A DNA stretch of 64,000 nucleotides from an uncultured Bacteroidales bacterium. GTDB taxonomy: Bacteria; Bacteroidota; Bacteroidia; Bacteroidales; Bacteroidaceae. The notes beneath the pieces are model-generated. The model searched no databases. It saw only the letters and a program-made list of their open reading frames with translations, and was not told the DNA's origin. Both the position numbers and the translations under genes were made by a program. Below are positions 38,638-48,451 of this stretch, piece by piece; within the stretch, counting starts at the first letter, position 1; every line of letters starts with the position of its first letter. Location of the stretch: positions 1 through 64,000 of the forward strand of contig CACYHW010000001.1 of the NCBI GenBank assembly GCA_902774335.1, written 5' to 3'.

Positions 38638-38763
38638 TAAGGTGTCCGGGCCGGCGATGTATGTTTATATTTACAACAAAAGTATAAATAATTGTCAAAA
38701 TGTTTGGATGTTTTTACAAGATGTAATTTATTTGCATCAAGAACCTGATAAAAAACAACCGGT

Positions 38764-39126
38764 ATGAAGAAACTGACCGATAAAGAACTTGCAATTATGA
38801 ACGTGCTCTGGGACAACGGGGCACTCTCAATGAGAGATATCCTGGCACACCTGCCCGAGCCTCAGCCCAACTTCAACACCCTTACCACGTTTGTACGCCG
38901 CCTGGAGATGAGCGGCATGATAAGTCACCGTGAACTGGGAGCACGATTCTTCCTTTATGAGGCTGCCGTTCCGCGCGACAAGTACATCGAGCTCATGAAC
39001 AAAGAGAGCGTAGCCCGCTTCTTTAACGGTTCATACACCGATTTTATCTCCTGCCTGGTAAAACAGCAGGAAGTTAGCATTGACGAGTTGAAAGAACTTA
39101 TTCGCATGGCCGAAAACGCAAAATAG
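38764..39126 (+). CDS. BlaI/MecI-type transcriptional repressor
   Basis: This 120-residue protein has the winged helix of BlaI/MecI/CopY repressors: LTDKELAIMNVLWDNGALSM at the start, NFNTLTTFVRRLEMSGMI as the recognition region, and a C-terminal dimerisation helix (SIDELKELIRMAENAK). In the classical system the repressor is cleaved when its BlaR1 partner senses a signal. The M56 protein begins 11 bp downstream, so the pair forms one sensing unit. There is no beta-lactamase gene nearby, which suggests another signal such as cell-envelope stress. The promoter region (ttatttg near 38728) is only near consensus. Confidence 0.92.
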   Translation: MKKLTDKELAIMNVLWDNGALSMRDILAHLPEPQPNFNTLTTFVRRLEMSGMISHRELGARFFLYEAAVPRDKYIELMNKESVARFFNGSYTDFISCLVKQQEVSIDELKELIRMAENAK

Positions 39127-39137
39127 TCCGATTCATT

Positions 39138-41444
39138 ATGGGTAGCATAGTATTATATATAATGGAATGGGCATTCGCCCTGATTGTTCTGCTTACAATC
39201 TATAAGGCTGCATTCAGCGGAACGACATTCTACCGTTTTAACCGGTTTTACCTGCTGGGAGCCACATTGCTCTCGGCCCTTCTCCCCCTTGTTCAAATTA
39301 CCATTCCGCAGGACGCTCCCCTGGTCAGCGAGTTGACCATATCGGACACCGAGTTCGCCCAGGAGCTGTCTGGCACCTTCACTCTGGTAGAGGAGCAGCC
39401 CGTGACAGTAGCCGCTGTAACGGAGCAGCCTGCCCCGGCCCCCAGACAATCCAGTTTATGGGCTGTAACCCTGGTATGCATCTACTCCGGTTACGTGATC
39501 ATGCTTATAACCGGCTGGACACGCAGCATCATCAGGACCAGAAAGTTCCTGCGCGGCAAAACACGCCGCCGCTTAAGCCGTACCGTCTGGCTGGTTACCC
39601 ACCATGAGGCTTACGGTCCCTTCAGCTGGATGAACTACATTGTAATATCCGATACCGAGAAGGGCTTTTCACGCCGCGCTAGCCTGCGTCACGAGTATTC
39701 GCACGTAAGGCTCATGCACTCTGCCGACCTGGTATTCCTGTTGGCATGCACCATAGTCAATCCGGTATGCTGGCTTGTACTCCAGGAGATTAAGATCATA
39801 CACGAATACCAGGCTGACCATGAGGTGATCAACCGTTACGGTATCCGCAATTGCGACTATCAGAAATTATTGATAATGAGGACTGTCGGCGCAGAGGCCT
39901 ATGCGCTTGCCAGCTCTTTTAACCTAAACATTAAAAAGAGAATTATTATGTTGAACAAGAACCAATCCAGGAAAAGGCGCCTCATGTGGCTTCTGCTCCT
40001 GATTCCCATGCTGGGAATGACTTCTGTCCTGTTTGCGCGTACAGAAAAGGCCGTAAATCTGGATGACAACTTACGTTTCACTTCCGGTAATACAGAAATG
40101 TCTTACAGGATACCTGAACCTATGGAACCTATATCCGTTGATTATCCCGGCCCTATAACGCGTGCCGAGTACATAATGGTTGTAGAAGATGATCAAGTAG
40201 TAAGTGATGAACTACAAAAACAAGCCCGAAAACAGGAGGCCATGATCATTCGTCAAAGGAACGTCATGACAATACAGGTCAACAAAAACAATGATATTTA
40301 CGTCAAAAACGGATTGTTGGCCAGGACCGTGGCTGTTGACGAACTGAAAGACCTTGCCAAGCAGTTCATTCAGAATCCGGATAACGACAGCAGGCTCCCC
40401 ATAATAGAGGATTATGAAATTAATGGATATGGAACAGTTAAGACAACTGTAAGACATATATTCTCATTTCAGTATGACCGTGCTTCCTCATCAGGCGTAA
40501 TAAGTGATGTAAAGTATGAACTGCTGAACGCATACAATGAACTGCGCGATGAACTGTGCGTGAGCAAATTCGGAAAGAAATATGCCCAATGCTCTGATAC
40601 TGAGCAGTTATTTGCCCGGGGAATGTATGCATGTAAAATAAGTGAAGCTCAACCCGTATCATATGATGGTGAAGGTAACCGCATCGTAAAAGAGGTAAGG
40701 TCTGCCGCGGCCAATCCGGAAAAGGCCAAAACAGAAAAAGTCAACAAGGATCTGCGCATCAGGGTAAAAGGTAGTCCCGCCAGATTATACGTATCCACGG
40801 TATTGTTTGATAATGAAAACGGTCAGGATCATCTTAAGAGTGAGACAACAGCAAAACAGATCCGTCTGGAGGACCTTGATAATTATATAGATCAGGCAAT
40901 ATCAGACGGAATGAAAATCCGCAAAGTCCGCCTTGGAATACAACAGGATGTTCCCATGGGAGTAATCATTGACCTGAAAGAAACTATCCGATACAGGATG
41001 CTTCTTAACATCATCCAGGAGAGCTACCAGGAGCCGGTTACCGCTCAGGCAAGCCCTGTAATTGATGATGACGAAGTAAAGATTGATCTGGACAGGAACT
41101 TCACTGAGCATGCAGAGGGCGAAGTCTTTAAGGAACTCCGCATGGTGATGTCCTATGACCCCGTCTGCATCCAGTCAACCATACGCACTCTCAGGCACGA
41201 AAACGGCCAGGACCTGCTCATTGACGAGGAACCCCTTGAGGATGTCTACGAGGTGGAGTATTTAGCAAACATCCTGGATCAGTCATCGGACCGCCTGCTC
41301 GAGGTCAGCAGGTTCAGGCTCGCCATGAGTCCCGACGTTCCCCAGGGCCTCGCAGCGCTCATGAAAACCATGCTCCGCAGCAGGAAAGTCACCAACTTGC
41401 TCTATGAGTCTTACGCCAACCAGCAAAAGACAAAGGAGATTTGA
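39138..41444 (+). CDS. BlaR1-type M56 metallopeptidase with ExbD/TolR-like C-terminal repeats
   Basis: This 768-residue protein starts as a BlaR1 antirepressor. Membrane helices lie at about residues 5-25, 38-56, 106-126 and 196-215. The zinc protease motif HEYSH is at residues 185-189, and a further helix is at 281-300. The C-terminal 460 residues do not resemble a penicillin-binding domain. Residues about 370-510 resemble a Bacteroidetes ExbD periplasmic domain (VNKNNDIYVKNG, VAVDELKDLAKQFI, YELLNAYNELRDEL, ISEAQPV). Two further segments (about 537-632 and 660-758) look like divergent copies of each other (NENGQDHL / HENGQDLL, QQDVPMGV / SPDVPQGL, IIQESY / LLYESY). The partner BlaI gene is directly upstream. 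Confidence 0.88.
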   Translation: MGSIVLYIMEWAFALIVLLTIYKAAFSGTTFYRFNRFYLLGATLLSALLPLVQITIPQDAPLVSELTISDTEFAQELSGTFTLVEEQPVTVAAVTEQPAPAPRQSSLWAVTLVCIYSGYVIMLITGWTRSIIRTRKFLRGKTRRRLSRTVWLVTHHEAYGPFSWMNYIVISDTEKGFSRRASLRHEYSHVRLMHSADLVFLLACTIVNPVCWLVLQEIKIIHEYQADHEVINRYGIRNCDYQKLLIMRTVGAEAYALASSFNLNIKKRIIMLNKNQSRKRRLMWLLLLIPMLGMTSVLFARTEKAVNLDDNLRFTSGNTEMSYRIPEPMEPISVDYPGPITRAEYIMVVEDDQVVSDELQKQARKQEAMIIRQRNVMTIQVNKNNDIYVKNGLLARTVAVDELKDLAKQFIQNPDNDSRLPIIEDYEINGYGTVKTTVRHIFSFQYDRASSSGVISDVKYELLNAYNELRDELCVSKFGKKYAQCSDTEQLFARGMYACKISEAQPVSYDGEGNRIVKEVRSAAANPEKAKTEKVNKDLRIRVKGSPARLYVSTVLFDNENGQDHLKSETTAKQIRLEDLDNYIDQAISDGMKIRKVRLGIQQDVPMGVIIDLKETIRYRMLLNIIQESYQEPVTAQASPVIDDDEVKIDLDRNFTEHAEGEVFKELRMVMSYDPVCIQSTIRTLRHENGQDLLIDEEPLEDVYEVEYLANILDQSSDRLLEVSRFRLAMSPDVPQGLAALMKTMLRSRKVTNLLYESYANQQKTKEI

Positions 41445-41837: not shown

Positions 41838-41922
41838 GAGGTCAACGAAGTTAACCAGCCGCATCGCGGAGAGGTCAACGAAGTTAACCGGCCGCATCGC
41901 GGAGAGGTCAACAAAGTCAACC
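41838..41922. repeat. 33-bp tandem repeat (2.6 copies)
   Basis: Units start at 41838, 41871 and 41904 (third partial). The unit contains gaggtcaacgaagttaacc followed by gccgcatcgcgga. A short hairpin (agcgag/ctcgct, 41807-41822) precedes it. The stretch 41704-42046 holds no gene I can support; the repeat is its only notable content. Confidence 0.85.
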
Positions 41923-42046
41923 ATCTTTTTTGCGACTGCAAATGTAGCAAAAACTTCTAACTCAAAGACAATGAAACAACGAAAAAAGCCAACCAGCAAA
42001 AAAAATAATAAAACCAGCAGACGCTTGCATTTATAAATCACTAATC

Positions 42047-42834: not shown

Positions 42835-43551
42835 TCCAAAGAACAGAAGGATGACCGGTAGCGGCAGCCAGTATATGACAAAACTCAGATAACCGTAAAG
42901 GCTCTCATCCAATCCTATCAGCCGGTCAATGTGAGTGTACTCCAGAGTCTGGATAAGCTGTGCGGCAATTAGCATGGTTACCAGGAACTGGGCAAAGGGA
43001 CTCAGTATGGTACAGAATGCCTTGACGCAGTCATATGCGGTACGGAATGTCTCGGTAGAGAGGCCGAACACAAGCGAAGGCAGGCAGACGGCAAGCATCA
43101 GCAGGAACATAAAGCCGTCATAGAGAGGACTGCCGGCCAGATGTCCGGTAATACCCAGCAACAGATGGCTGCCCGAAAAGACGCCCAGCACAATCAGACA
43201 TACGTAAACCAACAGAACAGCCGTACTGATATAGATAGCATTGCGCTCCTTGGGCGACAGGTTGCCTATCCTGGAAACTGCACGGAACAGTCCGCTCGCA
43301 CGACCGGCACCCACGGCAATGAACAGCATGAGCGCATTACCCACCGGGGTAATGCTCATGCACGATGCAGCCGTACGTACTGCCCATCGTATGCCGCTCT
43401 CGCCCAGCACGCTGCGCAACAGCAGTTCACCGTTACCTCCCACCCTGCGTATCTCCATGATACTGCCTATCCATGATGCCAGGATTACAAGCACCAGCAG
43501 CATCAGATAGATTACGGCGGGATGAAGCCAGCCTGTGGAACGTCTATTCAT
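42799..43551 (-). CDS. Half-length AbgT-like transporter protein
   Basis: This 250-residue membrane protein has about six hydrophobic segments. The stretch LLRSVLGESGIRWAVRTAAS followed by ITPVGNALMLFIAVGAGRASG resembles the N-terminal part of AbgT (p-aminobenzoyl-glutamate transporter) proteins, which are about 500 residues long. A full AbgT dimer subunit would need the second half, so this copy is either a short family form or a non-transporting partner. The ATG at 43551 overlaps the response regulator stop by 8 bp. It ends the minus-strand signalling operon. Confidence 0.6.
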   Translation of the reverse strand: MNRRSTGWLHPAVIYLMLLVLVILASWIGSIMEIRRVGGNGELLLRSVLGESGIRWAVRTAASCMSITPVGNALMLFIAVGAGRASGLFRAVSRIGNLSPKERNAIYISTAVLLVYVCLIVLGVFSGSHLLLGITGHLAGSPLYDGFMFLLMLAVCLPSLVFGLSTETFRTAYDCVKAFCTILSPFAQFLVTMLIAAQLIQTLEYTHIDRLIGLDESLYGYLSFVIYWLPLPVILLFFGSPSKNIPDQEP

Positions 43552-44263
43552 CGGCCTCCAGATTTGACGGATCAATTATGTGTAATTCTATTGCACGCAC
43601 CACCAGGCGGGTCACGTTCACGCCGCGCTGCTCGCCCTCGGGGAACAGGCGTGTCACCAGGTCGGCCTGACGCTTTTCCAGCGACTTGCTGCTGAACGGC
43701 ATGGTACGCAACTCGCTTATCATATCCTTGGTGTAACCCAGCGCCAGATGACGCAGGAAACGCTCGTCGTACTCGTCAATCTCGTACTCAATGCCTGCGC
43801 TGCGCTGCAGTTTCTCGTCGGTGACAGCCTTGCGGAAACGCTCCACAAGCTTTTCCAGGACGGGCTGGTTAAAGACATAGCGCTTGCCGTTCATCACATC
43901 CATCACCTCGGAACGGGTAAGCAGTTCGCCCGTCTTGAGCACAATGCCGTGAGCTCCGGCGTCAAGCACATCGGCCCAGAGTTTCTCGTTCAGGAGCTCG
44001 CCGGTAAAGACAAGCACCTTGACGCCGCCCTTCTGCGTGAGCTTGCGGCAAATGTCCACGCCCACGGTGGTGGAGCCGCCCAGTCCCAGGTCCAGCAGCA
44101 CCAGATCAGGCTGCGCGCCGCCGTCAATCAGGGCCCAGAACTCGCGCTCTGTCTGCGCCGTCCCTATCACCTCGACTTCGGGGATATCGTTCCTGATTAT
44201 GGAGAGTGTACCCTTAAGTTCGAGTGACACATCCTCTACCACGATTGTCTTGATCTTATCCAT
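43544..44263 (-). CDS. Response regulator with receiver and LuxR-like HTH
   Basis: This 239-residue protein has a receiver domain (residues about 5-125). Acidic residues lie in VVEDVSL, the phospho-acceptor aspartate is in LVLLDLGLGG, the conserved threonine is in VLVFTGE and the lysine is in IVLKTGE. The C-terminal part (about 165-235) resembles a LuxR/GerE helix-turn-helix: DERFLRHLALGYTKDMISEL and SSKSLEKRQADLVTRLF. It starts 12 bp after the stop of the double sensor kinase, its likely partner. The genes it controls are unknown. Confidence 0.85.
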   Translation of the reverse strand: MDKIKTIVVEDVSLELKGTLSIIRNDIPEVEVIGTAQTEREFWALIDGGAQPDLVLLDLGLGGSTTVGVDICRKLTQKGGVKVLVFTGELLNEKLWADVLDAGAHGIVLKTGELLTRSEVMDVMNGKRYVFNQPVLEKLVERFRKAVTDEKLQRSAGIEYEIDEYDERFLRHLALGYTKDMISELRTMPFSSKSLEKRQADLVTRLFPEGEQRGVNVTRLVVRAIELHIIDPSNLEADE

Positions 44264-44275
44264 ATCCTAAATGTT

Positions 44276-47200
44276 TTATTTCAGTTTTGCGGCAGGCACG
44301 GTAAACCATATCACCATACCCTCCTTTTCGGCCTCGGCATTGATGCGGCAGCCGGGATGACCGAACGCCTCGTCATGCTCGCGTATTATCTGACGGCACA
44401 GCACGTATGCCATGTTATCCTTGTTCATGAGCGGTGTAAAGAGCCCGTCCAGCACATCGGGAGCGGGTGTCTGGCAGGTGCGGTGCAGCTCAAAACGCAC
44501 AAACTCGCCATCCTTCCTGACCTCCAGCCTCATATCGCCACCCTGGGCCATTCCGCGGTCCAGAATATTGTCAAGCAGGAACTCCAGCATCACGCGGTCG
44601 GCCGTCACGGCAACATCGCTCTCCTTAACACTGAACTTCCCGCCGTATCCGTTCTTTGCCATAGCCTTACCCATGTAAGCCGATGCATGCGCAGTGAGGT
44701 CCGATGCACGGAAAGCCTCCCTGTGAAGCAGCTGGCCCGATGTCTGTGACAGCGCATACTGGCTCAGAATGCCGAATATCTCGCGATAGTAGTCCACCAG
44801 TTCCTGCATATCCTGCACCTGTGCGGCGGTACGGTTGGCAGCATCCGTAGCCTCAACGTCACTCACCATCTGCACAATCCTGTTGGGATACCATACAGTC
44901 TCATGCTTGAGTGTGGAGAGGCAGTTGTCCAGAATAAGGTTGCTTACATGCAGGCGGTTCTCCTCGTAACGAATGCGGTCCGACTCCTCCCTGATCTGTT
45001 CAATGTCACGGAATCCCGACTCAAAGCGTATCACGCAGCTGTAAAGCGCTGTAGCCATGTAACCGGCAATCATACCCTTGATAATCTGCCATGTCTGGCC
45101 GGGTTCCTGCTCCAAACGGATACCCAACGCACCTATCATGCGCTCCGTGCCGTCCAGCGTGAGCACCAGAGGCAGCGCGCGGCACAGTCCGTCGGCCGAT
45201 GCCTGCTCCGTCCCGAGCGTCATGCAGGCGTTCACACGATCCTCAAGACGCTCATCCACAGCACCTTCGCTGTACACGGCGGTAATCATGCGGCCGTCGT
45301 CGTTGAGCTTGATCATCAGGCTGCGCATATCGGCCAGATGGTCCATCTCCAGATATATTCCGTTCACCAGACGCTTTACGATATCCTCGGCATTGAAGTC
45401 CTGAAGGTCCGTCACCGCGGTTGTGGCCGATATGCTGTCAACCACGCGCACGGCCTGCTGCAGGTCGCTGCGGAACTTGAGCCAGTGACGTGAGTGCACC
45501 ACATATCTTATCAGGATAACCATGATGAATATGAGCACGAACACTATCACCGCGATGTAGAGGTTGCTGTTGGTGCGCTGCAGCTCACGGCAGTCCTCCT
45601 CGATCTTCCACTCGCCGAAGTAGAGTTTGAAGAGCTTTAGATAAGCGTCGTCATTGTATCGGTATACGCTCCAGTCACGCAGTGCCAGGGCCGATACCGC
45701 AATCTCGTTGCGCAGCCACAGCACCGTCTCGTAGTCGGTGGCAAAGCCGTCTTCCAGCCAGTAGGTCTCGGCCGGCACAAGCGTATCCACTACCGACAGG
45801 AGCATATCGTCAAAGCCTCCGTTAAGCAGGTAATCCTCGTTTAGTACGGCAAACGCCGAGTCGGCATAGAGCAGCGCATCCTCAAAGCGGCCCTCGGTGT
45901 TGCACAGGTAGGTCTGGTTGGCGTAGTTGTATGCCTCCACAAGCAGGCTGTCGCTACTCTGGGCACGGGTTGTCAGGCCCGAGCATATCAAAATCAGCAG
46001 CGCAAATGCCCGTTTGATACCCTTGGGCAGGCGGAACGAGAAACGGCTGCCCTTGCCCGGTGTGCTCTCCACGTTGAAGCTGCACACGCGGAACAGGTCA
46101 TCGGCCTTGCGGTATTTCTCAATGATACCCTTGCAGTTCATAAGGCCGAATCCGCTGCCCTTGCCCTTGTCGCCCTGTCCAATCTGCGACGGGTCGTATA
46201 CCTTCTCCTCGGTCAGGCGGCGCACATCGTCGGCACTCAGACCCACGCCCGTATCGGCCACCGATATCTCCACATAGTCATCAGCCTGCACGGCCTCGAT
46301 ATGTACCTTTCCGCCGGCCGGCGTGAACTTGCGGGCGTTGTCGGCAAGGGTGTTTATCATAAAGAGCGTAAGCACACGGTCGGCGCGCACCACGGCATCG
46401 GTGGGTGCAACCTCAAGCTCCACGCCCTTTTGGCCGAAGCTGCGGCTGCCGTGACTAACTATGTCAAACAGGCTCTGCACCTGGAAACTCTCAACATTGA
46501 GATTGACCACACCCTGACGAATGCGAATCCACTGGGCCAGCAGGTCGTTGTACTGATTTATGCGCTCCGCCAGCTCACGTACATACTGCAGGCTCTGCGC
46601 ATACTGCGGGCTGTCGGCCGGCATTTCGGCCAGATGACGTATCTCGGAGCGCATACGGTCAATGTACGGCAGGCACTCGGCCACCACCTGACAGCAGGTC
46701 TTGCGGGCCAGATTTTCGCGTTTGTTGGCCGCGGCATGCAGGCTGTACAGATAGTGCTGCTTCTCGGCCTGCTTAAGGCGGTCCTCCTGCCCCACCAGCT
46801 CATCGGCATTACGCAGGGCAGCCTTCAGGTATGGAGCCACGGTACCCAATACGGTGCGACTGTCACGACTCACGCGATGTCCGCCCCATGAGGCATGGAT
46901 ATCGGCATTCTGATCGATGGTTATGGATTCAGCTCCGGTAAGTTCCATCATCACGGGAGCCACCAGACCGTTAAGCCACTCTATGATATCGGCCCCGTCG
47001 GGAGCGGGACGCAGGATACTCTCGCACAGCGCTACGGTCTTGCGCATCATCTCCACATAATGACTGTTGGCCGCGTTGATACGCTTGTGGAACAGCACCA
47101 TGAGGAGTATCAGCAGCACTATCGCGCCGGCCACGGCATAGAGCATGCCCATGAGACGGCGGTTGGAGCGCTCCAGAATAATGGTGCGGGCCTCGTAGCG

Positions 47201-48451
47201 GCGGTCCAGACGGATGGTCTTCTGCAGCTCAAGATAGACCGTACGGTTATAGTCCGATGCCACCTTGTTGTCCATCCCCGAGTAGGCCAGGCTAATCTGC
47301 TCCCTGAGCGATGCCATGCACTCCGGAACCACCGCATGCGGCATTGCGGCCATCCACTGCTGCTCCACAATCACGCCGTCGGTCCTGTAGGGTTCCAGAC
47401 GCTCAAAGGTGCCCTTTCCTACGCTGTTCAGGCGGAAATTGTCGTTGAGCATGTCCAGCGCGTTGGTGAGCACGTCCAGAGCCTCCTCATAGAGTCCGCG
47501 TGCTATATAACATGATGCCAGCAGGCGCTCGCACTCAATAATCTCATACTGTCCTCCGTACGATGCTGACAGCTGCAACGCCTTGAGCGCCAGCTGCGTA
47601 GGCAGAAGCTCAGGCTGCACGTCCGATGCATTCAGGCGTGCAAGCATGTCACTGCTCACACCTGACAGCACATTGTCCGTGCCGTACTCCAGCAGCAGCG
47701 AGCATATGGCGCTGATGCTCAGGGCCTGCATCCTTATGTTGTTGTAACGCACCGCACTGCGCTGGCAGTTATCCAGACTGCGCAGCCTCTGCAGCGCCTG
47801 TTCCTGCAACGTTCCTCCTTCCACGCCTATTCCCAGACCGCGCATGTAGGTATAGGTCAGGTATCGGTCATGGTCATTACGCAGCAGGTTGTCGGCCACC
47901 ACGTATGACATCTCGGTCCCCGCCTGTCCCAGCTGCTCCAGTTCGAACCAGTAGCGTGCCGACTCCATTCTGAACGAGCGCTCCAACGACAGCAGACGCT
48001 CCGTCTGGGCCTCGTTCAGCACCCCGCTCTCCTCGTGCAGCGCACGCAGATGCAGAAGTATGCTGTTGCGGTATTCGTAGAAGGATACGTTGTCCGATGT
48101 ACGCTGACATATGCGCATCAGGCCTATCTCCGCGCCCACCACCTCGAGCATGTTGCTGGTGATGTCGGGAACCGAGCTGTAAAGATCCCAGGCCTGGGTG
48201 TAATCCATGCGGACGGTGGCTATGCGGGCCAGTGTGTTGACAGCCTTGGCGCGCTCATCGGAACGGCGTCCCGACACCTCAAGCGCAAACCTGGCGTACT
48301 GCTCGGCCGAGTCCAGGTTGTTCCAAAGGTAGGAAATGGCCTTCTCGTTCAAGTCAAAGGCGGTCAGTCCCGACTCCTGTGCATGAACGCCTGCCGTTGC
48401 CGCAAGCAGCAGCAACCAAGCCAAAGCCCTATGTCCTGTTCTGAATCTCAT
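44276..48451 (-). CDS. Double receptor histidine kinase (DUF5112/DUF5113-like), 1391 residues
   Basis: The chain contains two receptor-kinase modules. Module 1: signal peptide (about residues 1-25), TPR-rich sensor region (about 26-435), a membrane helix near 440-460, and a cytoplasmic domain with an intact ATPase (N box NTLADNARKFTP near 700, DTGVGLS, GKGSGFGLMN near 763). Module 2 begins near residue 818 with a hydrophobic segment ending TTRAQS that looks like a second signal peptide. It continues with a short sensor region, a membrane helix near 960-980, a phospho-acceptor site LKHETVWYP (about 1182) and a degenerate ATPase without a DxGxG box. Module 1 lacks a clear phospho-acceptor motif. 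The gene overlaps the upstream secreted-protein gene by 4 bp. Confidence 0.82.
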   Translation of the reverse strand: MRFRTGHRALAWLLLLAATAGVHAQESGLTAFDLNEKAISYLWNNLDSAEQYARFALEVSGRRSDERAKAVNTLARIATVRMDYTQAWDLYSSVPDITSNMLEVVGAEIGLMRICQRTSDNVSFYEYRNSILLHLRALHEESGVLNEAQTERLLSLERSFRMESARYWFELEQLGQAGTEMSYVVADNLLRNDHDRYLTYTYMRGLGIGVEGGTLQEQALQRLRSLDNCQRSAVRYNNIRMQALSISAICSLLLEYGTDNVLSGVSSDMLARLNASDVQPELLPTQLALKALQLSASYGGQYEIIECERLLASCYIARGLYEEALDVLTNALDMLNDNFRLNSVGKGTFERLEPYRTDGVIVEQQWMAAMPHAVVPECMASLREQISLAYSGMDNKVASDYNRTVYLELQKTIRLDRRYEARTIILERSNRRLMGMLYAVAGAIVLLILLMVLFHKRINAANSHYVEMMRKTVALCESILRPAPDGADIIEWLNGLVAPVMMELTGAESITIDQNADIHASWGGHRVSRDSRTVLGTVAPYLKAALRNADELVGQEDRLKQAEKQHYLYSLHAAANKRENLARKTCCQVVAECLPYIDRMRSEIRHLAEMPADSPQYAQSLQYVRELAERINQYNDLLAQWIRIRQGVVNLNVESFQVQSLFDIVSHGSRSFGQKGVELEVAPTDAVVRADRVLTLFMINTLADNARKFTPAGGKVHIEAVQADDYVEISVADTGVGLSADDVRRLTEEKVYDPSQIGQGDKGKGSGFGLMNCKGIIEKYRKADDLFRVCSFNVESTPGKGSRFSFRLPKGIKRAFALLILICSGLTTRAQSSDSLLVEAYNYANQTYLCNTEGRFEDALLYADSAFAVLNEDYLLNGGFDDMLLSVVDTLVPAETYWLEDGFATDYETVLWLRNEIAVSALALRDWSVYRYNDDAYLKLFKLYFGEWKIEEDCRELQRTNSNLYIAVIVFVLIFIMVILIRYVVHSRHWLKFRSDLQQAVRVVDSISATTAVTDLQDFNAEDIVKRLVNGIYLEMDHLADMRSLMIKLNDDGRMITAVYSEGAVDERLEDRVNACMTLGTEQASADGLCRALPLVLTLDGTERMIGALGIRLEQEPGQTWQIIKGMIAGYMATALYSCVIRFESGFRDIEQIREESDRIRYEENRLHVSNLILDNCLSTLKHETVWYPNRIVQMVSDVEATDAANRTAAQVQDMQELVDYYREIFGILSQYALSQTSGQLLHREAFRASDLTAHASAYMGKAMAKNGYGGKFSVKESDVAVTADRVMLEFLLDNILDRGMAQGGDMRLEVRKDGEFVRFELHRTCQTPAPDVLDGLFTPLMNKDNMAYVLCRQIIREHDEAFGHPGCRINAEAEKEGMVIWFTVPAAKLK

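Follow-up and report, generated by a model that had tools for sequence, protein, structure and literature searches.

A BlaR1-type protease with an ExbD-type tail in an uncultured Bacteroidales bacterium, and its relatives in the Bacteroidaceae

The BlaI/BlaR1 pair is known as a beta-lactam alarm, and BlaI operators are of the TACA/TGTA type. In FecR-FecI type signalling, TonB-receptor surface signalling passes through anti-sigma and sigma factors, and in the Bacteroidaceae many receptors share few motors. According to PMC9834060, BlaR1 forms a domain-swapped dimer, cleaves BlaI directly, carries an EXXXD motif and has its autocleavage bond at Ser283-Phe284. The periplasmic domain of ExbD is dimeric and alternates between two states, binding the disordered part of TonB between its protomers (PMC10771500).

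The window analysed here, a stretch of 64,000 nucleotides from an uncultured Bacteroidales bacterium, contains on its forward strand a gene for a BlaI-type repressor and, starting eleven bases 3' of it, an open reading frame for an M56-ExbD sensor that, judged from its sequence, is a variant of the BlaI/BlaR1 system with a Ton-motor tail. The features of this locus are as follows:

38658..38675, strand not assigned: upstream dyad TGTA-N10-TACA, possible second BlaI site (from sequence)
38714..38734, + strand: likely BlaI operator overlapping the promoter region, core TTACAAGATGTAATTTATTTG (from sequence)
38764..39126, + strand: BlaI-type repressor, 120 aa (PF03965 Penicillinase_R, E 4.2e-23)
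39138..41444, + strand: M56-ExbD sensor protease, 768 aa (open reading frame and Pfam)
39138..40043, + strand: M56 module, residues 1-302 (Pfam; Kyte-Doolittle scan)
39690..39704, + strand: HEYSH zinc motif, residues 185-189 (from sequence)
39804..39818, + strand: EYQAD, the EXXXD gluzincin motif, residues 223-227 (from sequence)
39915..39920, + strand: Ser260-Phe261, near the expected place of the BlaR1 autocleavage bond Ser283-Phe284 (matched by eye, not aligned)
40224..40670, + strand: ExbD1-type periplasmic domain, residues 363-511
40731..41033, + strand: ExbD2-like domain 1, residues 532-632
41112..41423, + strand: ExbD2-like domain 2, residues 659-762 (hhalign to ExbD2; repeat of ExbD2-like domain 1)

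Like the BlaR1/MecR1-BlaI/MecI systems of Staphylococcus and Bacillus, the locus combines an M56 protease bearing HEXXH and EXXXD motifs with an adjacent BlaI-type gene, a putatively similar membrane layout as judged by hydropathy and a likely TACA/TGTA-type operator. The hydrophobic segments outlined by the Kyte-Doolittle scan, at approximately residues 1-31, 36-57, 105-128 and 281-302 plus a fifth at 192-218, are compatible with the BlaR1 layout of four membrane helices, in which the protease loop would lie inside and the tail outside the inner membrane. Unlike in the BlaR1/MecR1 systems, no penicillin-binding (transpeptidase-like) family was detected in the sensor at E <= 1 in the Pfam scan, its tail consists of three ExbD-type domains, and there is no beta-lactamase or PBP2a gene among its scanned neighbours. 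A sequence-only reading of this DNA had proposed an M56 protease module with HEYSH followed by a tail free of penicillin-binding motifs. The module was borne out by a PF05569 match of E 5e-6, which lies under Pfam's curated cut-off, together with HEYSH at residue 185 and EYQAD at 223, and the character of the tail by the Pfam scan, on which the identity of a beta-lactam sensor was rejected. NCBIfam returned no named family for the protein, and TonB_C was not found in it at E <= 1 in the Pfam scan.

The same reading had also described the protease as fused to three ExbD/TolR-like domains, the last two repeating each other, and evidence from sequence, profile and fold agrees with this description, most firmly for the first domain. 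The ExbD1-type domain is 58% identical (E 4e-57) to the ExbD1 of the resident ExbB-ExbD1-ExbD2 operon, located on contig 24 of the same genome, which rules out chance likeness. The similarity begins at ExbD1 residue 52, past the ExbD1 transmembrane helix, and the N-terminal transmembrane helix of ExbD that sits in ExbB is absent from the ExbD1 part of the sensor, which should therefore not line a proton channel. The two ExbD2-like segments are weak from sequence alone (E 0.006 for segment 2 and no match reported for segment 3 with blastp), they match each other at E 3e-9 in blastp, and six such domains taken as a profile align to ExbD2 at E 5.3e-6 with hhalign. PF02472 (ExbD/TolR) did not match the sensor protein at E <= 1. 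The order of the tail, ExbD1 followed by ExbD2, is that of the resident operon, and a neighbouring ExbD1-ExbD2 pair was present in all 50 of the 50 ExbD loci examined. The tail hence resembles the ExbD/TolR periplasmic domain (own operon; E. coli ExbD 8p9r, TolR 5by4) in sequence, order and predicted fold, and differs from ExbD/TolR in lacking the transmembrane helix, in being anchored to a protease and in lying outside an exbB operon; no exbB-type partner gene was found among the scanned neighbours of the sensor (BlaI, PD40, DUF6057, CD225 and DUF2752 proteins).

Comparison of structure predictions with ExbD/TolR, which the sequence-only reading had put forward as a check, agreed with it in part. 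ExbD/TolR came first only after structure matches were re-ranked by VIA-align. With Foldseek alone, the first 50 rows for a 438-residue model showed unrelated ATPases and reverse transcriptases with TM-scores of at most 0.30, with no ExbD or TolR among them, and for a 101-residue model glucokinases led, TolR ranking 32nd and ExbD 39th. Segment 1 of the large model obtained VIA-align values of 9.0 and 8.2, level with those of unrelated kinases matching elsewhere in the model, and its assignment rests mainly on sequence for this reason; the VIA-align list contained no ExbD matching segment 2 or 3 of this model. A profile search of solved structures returned TonB alone, at E about 0.2, a match that probably stems from alignment rows carrying TonB_C. 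Taken together, the sequence and model evidence supports a predicted tail made up of an ExbD1 periplasmic domain followed by two that are ExbD2-like.

Frames joining M56 to ExbD1 were identified in at least 18 of the 37 genomes of the same genus (35 stretches around best matches examined; MAG completeness 62-100%), a lower bound because relatives were taken from best matches only. A single freak gene or an assembly artefact was rejected on the strength of this recurrence and of synonymous changes exceeding replacement changes per site. The protease modules of these relatives are 69-80% identical to that of the window, and the matching records belong to uncultured Bacteroidaceae, Prevotellaceae and Bacteroidales, including MAGs from sheep, water buffalo, yak and red deer. 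BlaI lies directly upstream in 42 of 45 relatives; another two sit behind a further sensor in the same direction and one at a contig end. Tandem sensor copies occur among the same-genus relatives, and the tails of the family combine ExbD1, ExbD2-like, CarboxypepD_reg and TonB_C domains in many ways, all four being present in one 976-aa protein (L047). A paralogue on contig 6 of the window's own genome (76% identity over 319 residues) carries a tail of CarboxypepD_reg and TonB_C.

The search for the same fusion in other Bacteroidales, which the sequence-only reading had proposed as a check, succeeded within the genus. Among the matches listed from 251 genomes of the family and 393 of the order, no ExbD1-type fusion was found outside it, the ExbD1 matches there lying in open frames of 189-230 aa (family) and 181-355 aa (order). 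TonB_C was present in 14, and CarboxypepD_reg in 9, of 16 M56 loci examined in the family's other genera. Twelve further stretches, picked for long M56 frames, yielded eight M56 frames matching the ExbD2 profile, all from 7 genomes of a single genus; five of these matches had i-E <= 1.3e-4, the best reaching 2e-12, values obtained on a small frame set in which the ExbD1 profile gave chance-like matches to BlaI down to 0.01. One M56 protein from that genus, which is not the window's, contains a receptor Plug domain (E 1.6e-9). The window sensor shares with the M56-TonB_C proteins of the Bacteroidaceae the BlaI-M56 core, the operator core (at the own-genome paralogue) and a TonB-system tail, and is set apart by the nature of that tail, which is ExbD in the window and TonB_C, often with CarboxypepD_reg, in those proteins.

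Several minor features were observed in this set. One relative has its protease in one frame and its ExbD1-ExbD2 part in another (L050 3513-5427, L109 7076-7915), which points to either a broken fusion or an assembly fault. Two TonB_C-type sensors (L010 6032-8335, L060 2287-4794) have an OmpH/Skp-like helical stretch after TonB_C that may be only a coiled coil. The last ~70 residues of the sensor at L065 8968-11250 resemble a receptor plug motif by eye, with no Pfam call for a plug there at E <= 0.05. The 2.3-Mb genome of the window contains nine M56 matches at E <= 0.01, each beside a BlaI-like frame by eye and most with long tails.

The core TTACA-NN-(A/G)TGTA-(A/G)TTTATTTG is present ahead of 39 of the 42 family BlaI genes with enough upstream sequence, and a stretch similar to the TGTA-N10-TACA dyad precedes only part of the sensor family. 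Allowing up to 3 mismatches, the core occurs at two sites in the window's own genome, both before BlaI genes, against none in the reversed control; these sites belong to the window operon and to the contig-6 paralogue operon, and through this shared site the BlaI of the window operon could act on the contig-6 promoter. A looser pattern matched 9 sites, compared with 4 for the reversed control, a weak excess, and its seven extra sites were dropped, leaving the two BlaI operons as the sole yield of this regulon search. On contig 6 the operator site is flanked by BlaI and a divergent barrel gene if the barrel starts at an internal Met, the point at which its L047 relative begins; the longest frame of the contig-6 barrel would overrun the site. 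Barrel genes of this one sequence cluster, identified as OMP_b-brl_3 in both members scanned, neighbour 15 of 37 sensor loci: in 13 the barrel is downstream and co-oriented, with an intervening gene in two of these, and in the remaining two it is divergent. The genomes with these 15 neighbourhoods are related, and a single conserved location may account for all of them. Beside the window operon no receptor gene was found, the scanned neighbours encoding DUF6057, PD40, CD225 and DUF2752 proteins.

The sequence-only reading had suggested that the sensor may signal the status of TonB, Tol or the cell wall to BlaI. This function is plausible on sequence grounds, the evidence being compatible with each of the three inputs, and it gains weight because paralogues carry other parts of the TonB system and many adjoin a receptor-like gene. 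Since the recognisable tail parts across the family are mostly Ton parts, the state of the Ton machine appears the most likely input, a choice for which we see roughly even odds. The protein would then be a BlaR1-type protease with Ton-motor parts as its sensor, whose engagement or release by partners of the motor is read out through BlaI, an interpretation that stands at about an equal chance of being right or wrong; it would probably report the state of a nutrient pump rather than detect antibiotics.

Among the alternatives, a cell-wall sensor, in which the ExbD/TolR domains bind peptidoglycan glycan and BlaI is cleaved in response to damage or remodelling of the wall instead of TonB activity, is unlikely, though likelier than the others. 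It draws on the transient contact of the ExbD periplasmic domain with peptidoglycan glycan chains and on the ability of TolR to bind peptidoglycan (both in PMC10771500), and on beta-lactams being the classical trigger of BlaI/BlaR1 systems (PMC9834060). Paralogues with a closely similar protease nevertheless carry TonB_C and CarboxypepD_reg instead, and the recurrent neighbour is a receptor-like barrel. We know of no wall role for TonB_C or CarboxypepD_reg.

In a tree of 74 ExbD1 domains, all 24 sensor domains fell into one clade with support 99/95, in a tree with long branches on several sensor rows and with a 25th sensor domain, cut by a contig end, left out. Fourteen ExbD1 of other genera nest within the genus's own ExbD1, on the opposite side of the sensor-clade branch, which, with the root placed among the other genera, indicates that the captured copy diverged from ExbD1 once, within the genus. 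On a tree of 46 protease modules the presence of ExbD changes at least eight times (a parsimony count over a tree with 17 weak forks, in which one change may derive from L050, whose ExbD part sits in a second frame). Two gene pairs showed dS of about 0.15 in the protease versus 0.345-0.743 in the tail, and the protease-ExbD1 contrast was reversed in the L064/L068 pair (0.130 versus 0.062). For a single capture of ExbD1 combined with repeated changes across the protease tree, the best explanation is a putative exchange of tails between sensor copies. Palindrome-like intergenic stretches (GGGGACGG or GGGGTC/GACCCC cores) were also seen by eye before several sensor operons, upstream of BlaI in L047, L052, L054, L063, L065, L068, L073 and L081, and are possibly a repeat family that helps recombination.

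The ExbD domains might instead be a mere dimerisation or spacer module, with the signal coming from the membrane or the first periplasmic loop, as the dimeric state of both ExbD domains and BlaR1 would allow (PMC10771500 and PMC9834060). We regard this as quite improbable, given that tails have been swapped mostly for other Ton parts and that near-invariant ExbD1 positions are kept more than variable ones, at 25/33 versus 60/125 in the main sensor clade. The second clade retains 19/33 and 48/125, respectively, and two of the lost near-invariant positions precede the start of the cut domain; because near-invariant positions were lost, the contact surfaces of the captured ExbD1 may have changed. 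The compared sensor segments are under purifying, not diversifying, selection, with dN/dS of 0.11-0.35 in all but one of the 29 comparisons of segments, the exception, at 0.62, having few changes (ten gene pairs that share members and are not independent). Together with the kept positions, these ratios indicate that the sensor domains have been maintained, though not unchanged.

That mode of selection counts against an integrated decoy, in which copies of Ton parts would bait phages, bacteriocins or injected toxins that use or attack the Ton machine and a touched bait would elicit a response. The apparent exchange of tails between similar protease modules (at least eight ExbD changes; the protease-tail dS contrast in two pairs) and the tandem copies would suit a decoy, which we consider a slim prospect overall. 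Least probable of all is a motor regulator in which the sensor ExbD domains compete with the genuine ExbD or TonB and so reduce uptake, proteolysis playing a secondary part: 58% identity to the resident ExbD1 makes mixed pairing plausible, but the presence of HEXXH and EXXXD and the adjacent BlaI argue for signalling.

Under the preferred reading, in which the state of the Ton machine is read out through BlaI, the sensor would be dimeric, as proteins of BlaR1 type are, and the ExbD domains grafted on the protease would offer a spare docking site, engaged or vacated by ExbD1, ExbD2, TonB or wall glycan. A change in docking could reach the zinc site by way of transmembrane helix 4; BlaI would then be cut, and BlaI-repressed genes would go up. 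These would comprise the sensor operon and, for the own-genome paralogue and many relatives, the receptor-like outer-membrane barrel. The whole family would report supply or demand of the TonB machine, each member by a different part. We tentatively envisage a modular family in the Bacteroidaceae, somewhat short of an even bet, with one BlaI-protease chassis and interchangeable TonB-machine parts that each read a different joint and adjust receptors to motor capacity. The parts would be the stator ExbD1 and ExbD2, the TonB tip, the receptor extension and the plug, amounting to sensing by molecular self-mimicry, a proposal we advance with similar reserve.

Likeness to FecR-FecI type signalling would lie in the use of the Ton uptake machinery as an input to gene control; the means differ, with a protease and a BlaI repressor here and an anti-sigma and a sigma factor there. 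A search of the open-access literature yielded no paper joining M56, ExbD and BlaI, and no M56-ExbD fusion was reported in the titles and abstract starts listed; the text of PMC12204202 contains neither 'M56' nor 'BlaR'. In the tables of PMC10470040 a BlaI gene of Porphyromonas gingivalis changes with hemin and an M56 gene lies beside it, which is no more than suggestive. M56-BlaI pairs should not all be read as beta-lactam sensing. Ton-motor pieces on a BlaI/BlaR1 chassis suggest a wiring of uptake-machine status to transcription in the Bacteroidaceae, and the sensor family bears on how a Bacteroidaceae cell matches receptors to motors. The shuffled wider family is in this respect more striking than the window fusion alone.

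Further along the window, the gap 3' of the sensor contains a tandem array of a 33-base unit in 2.6 copies (41838-41923). On the reverse strand, a 1391-aa frame (44276-48451) resembles two histidine-kinase-like proteins placed end to end, with DUF5112 and HATPase_c followed by a stretch that looks like a signal peptide by eye and by DUF5113, and it is adjoined by a response regulator with DUF5932 (43544-44263).
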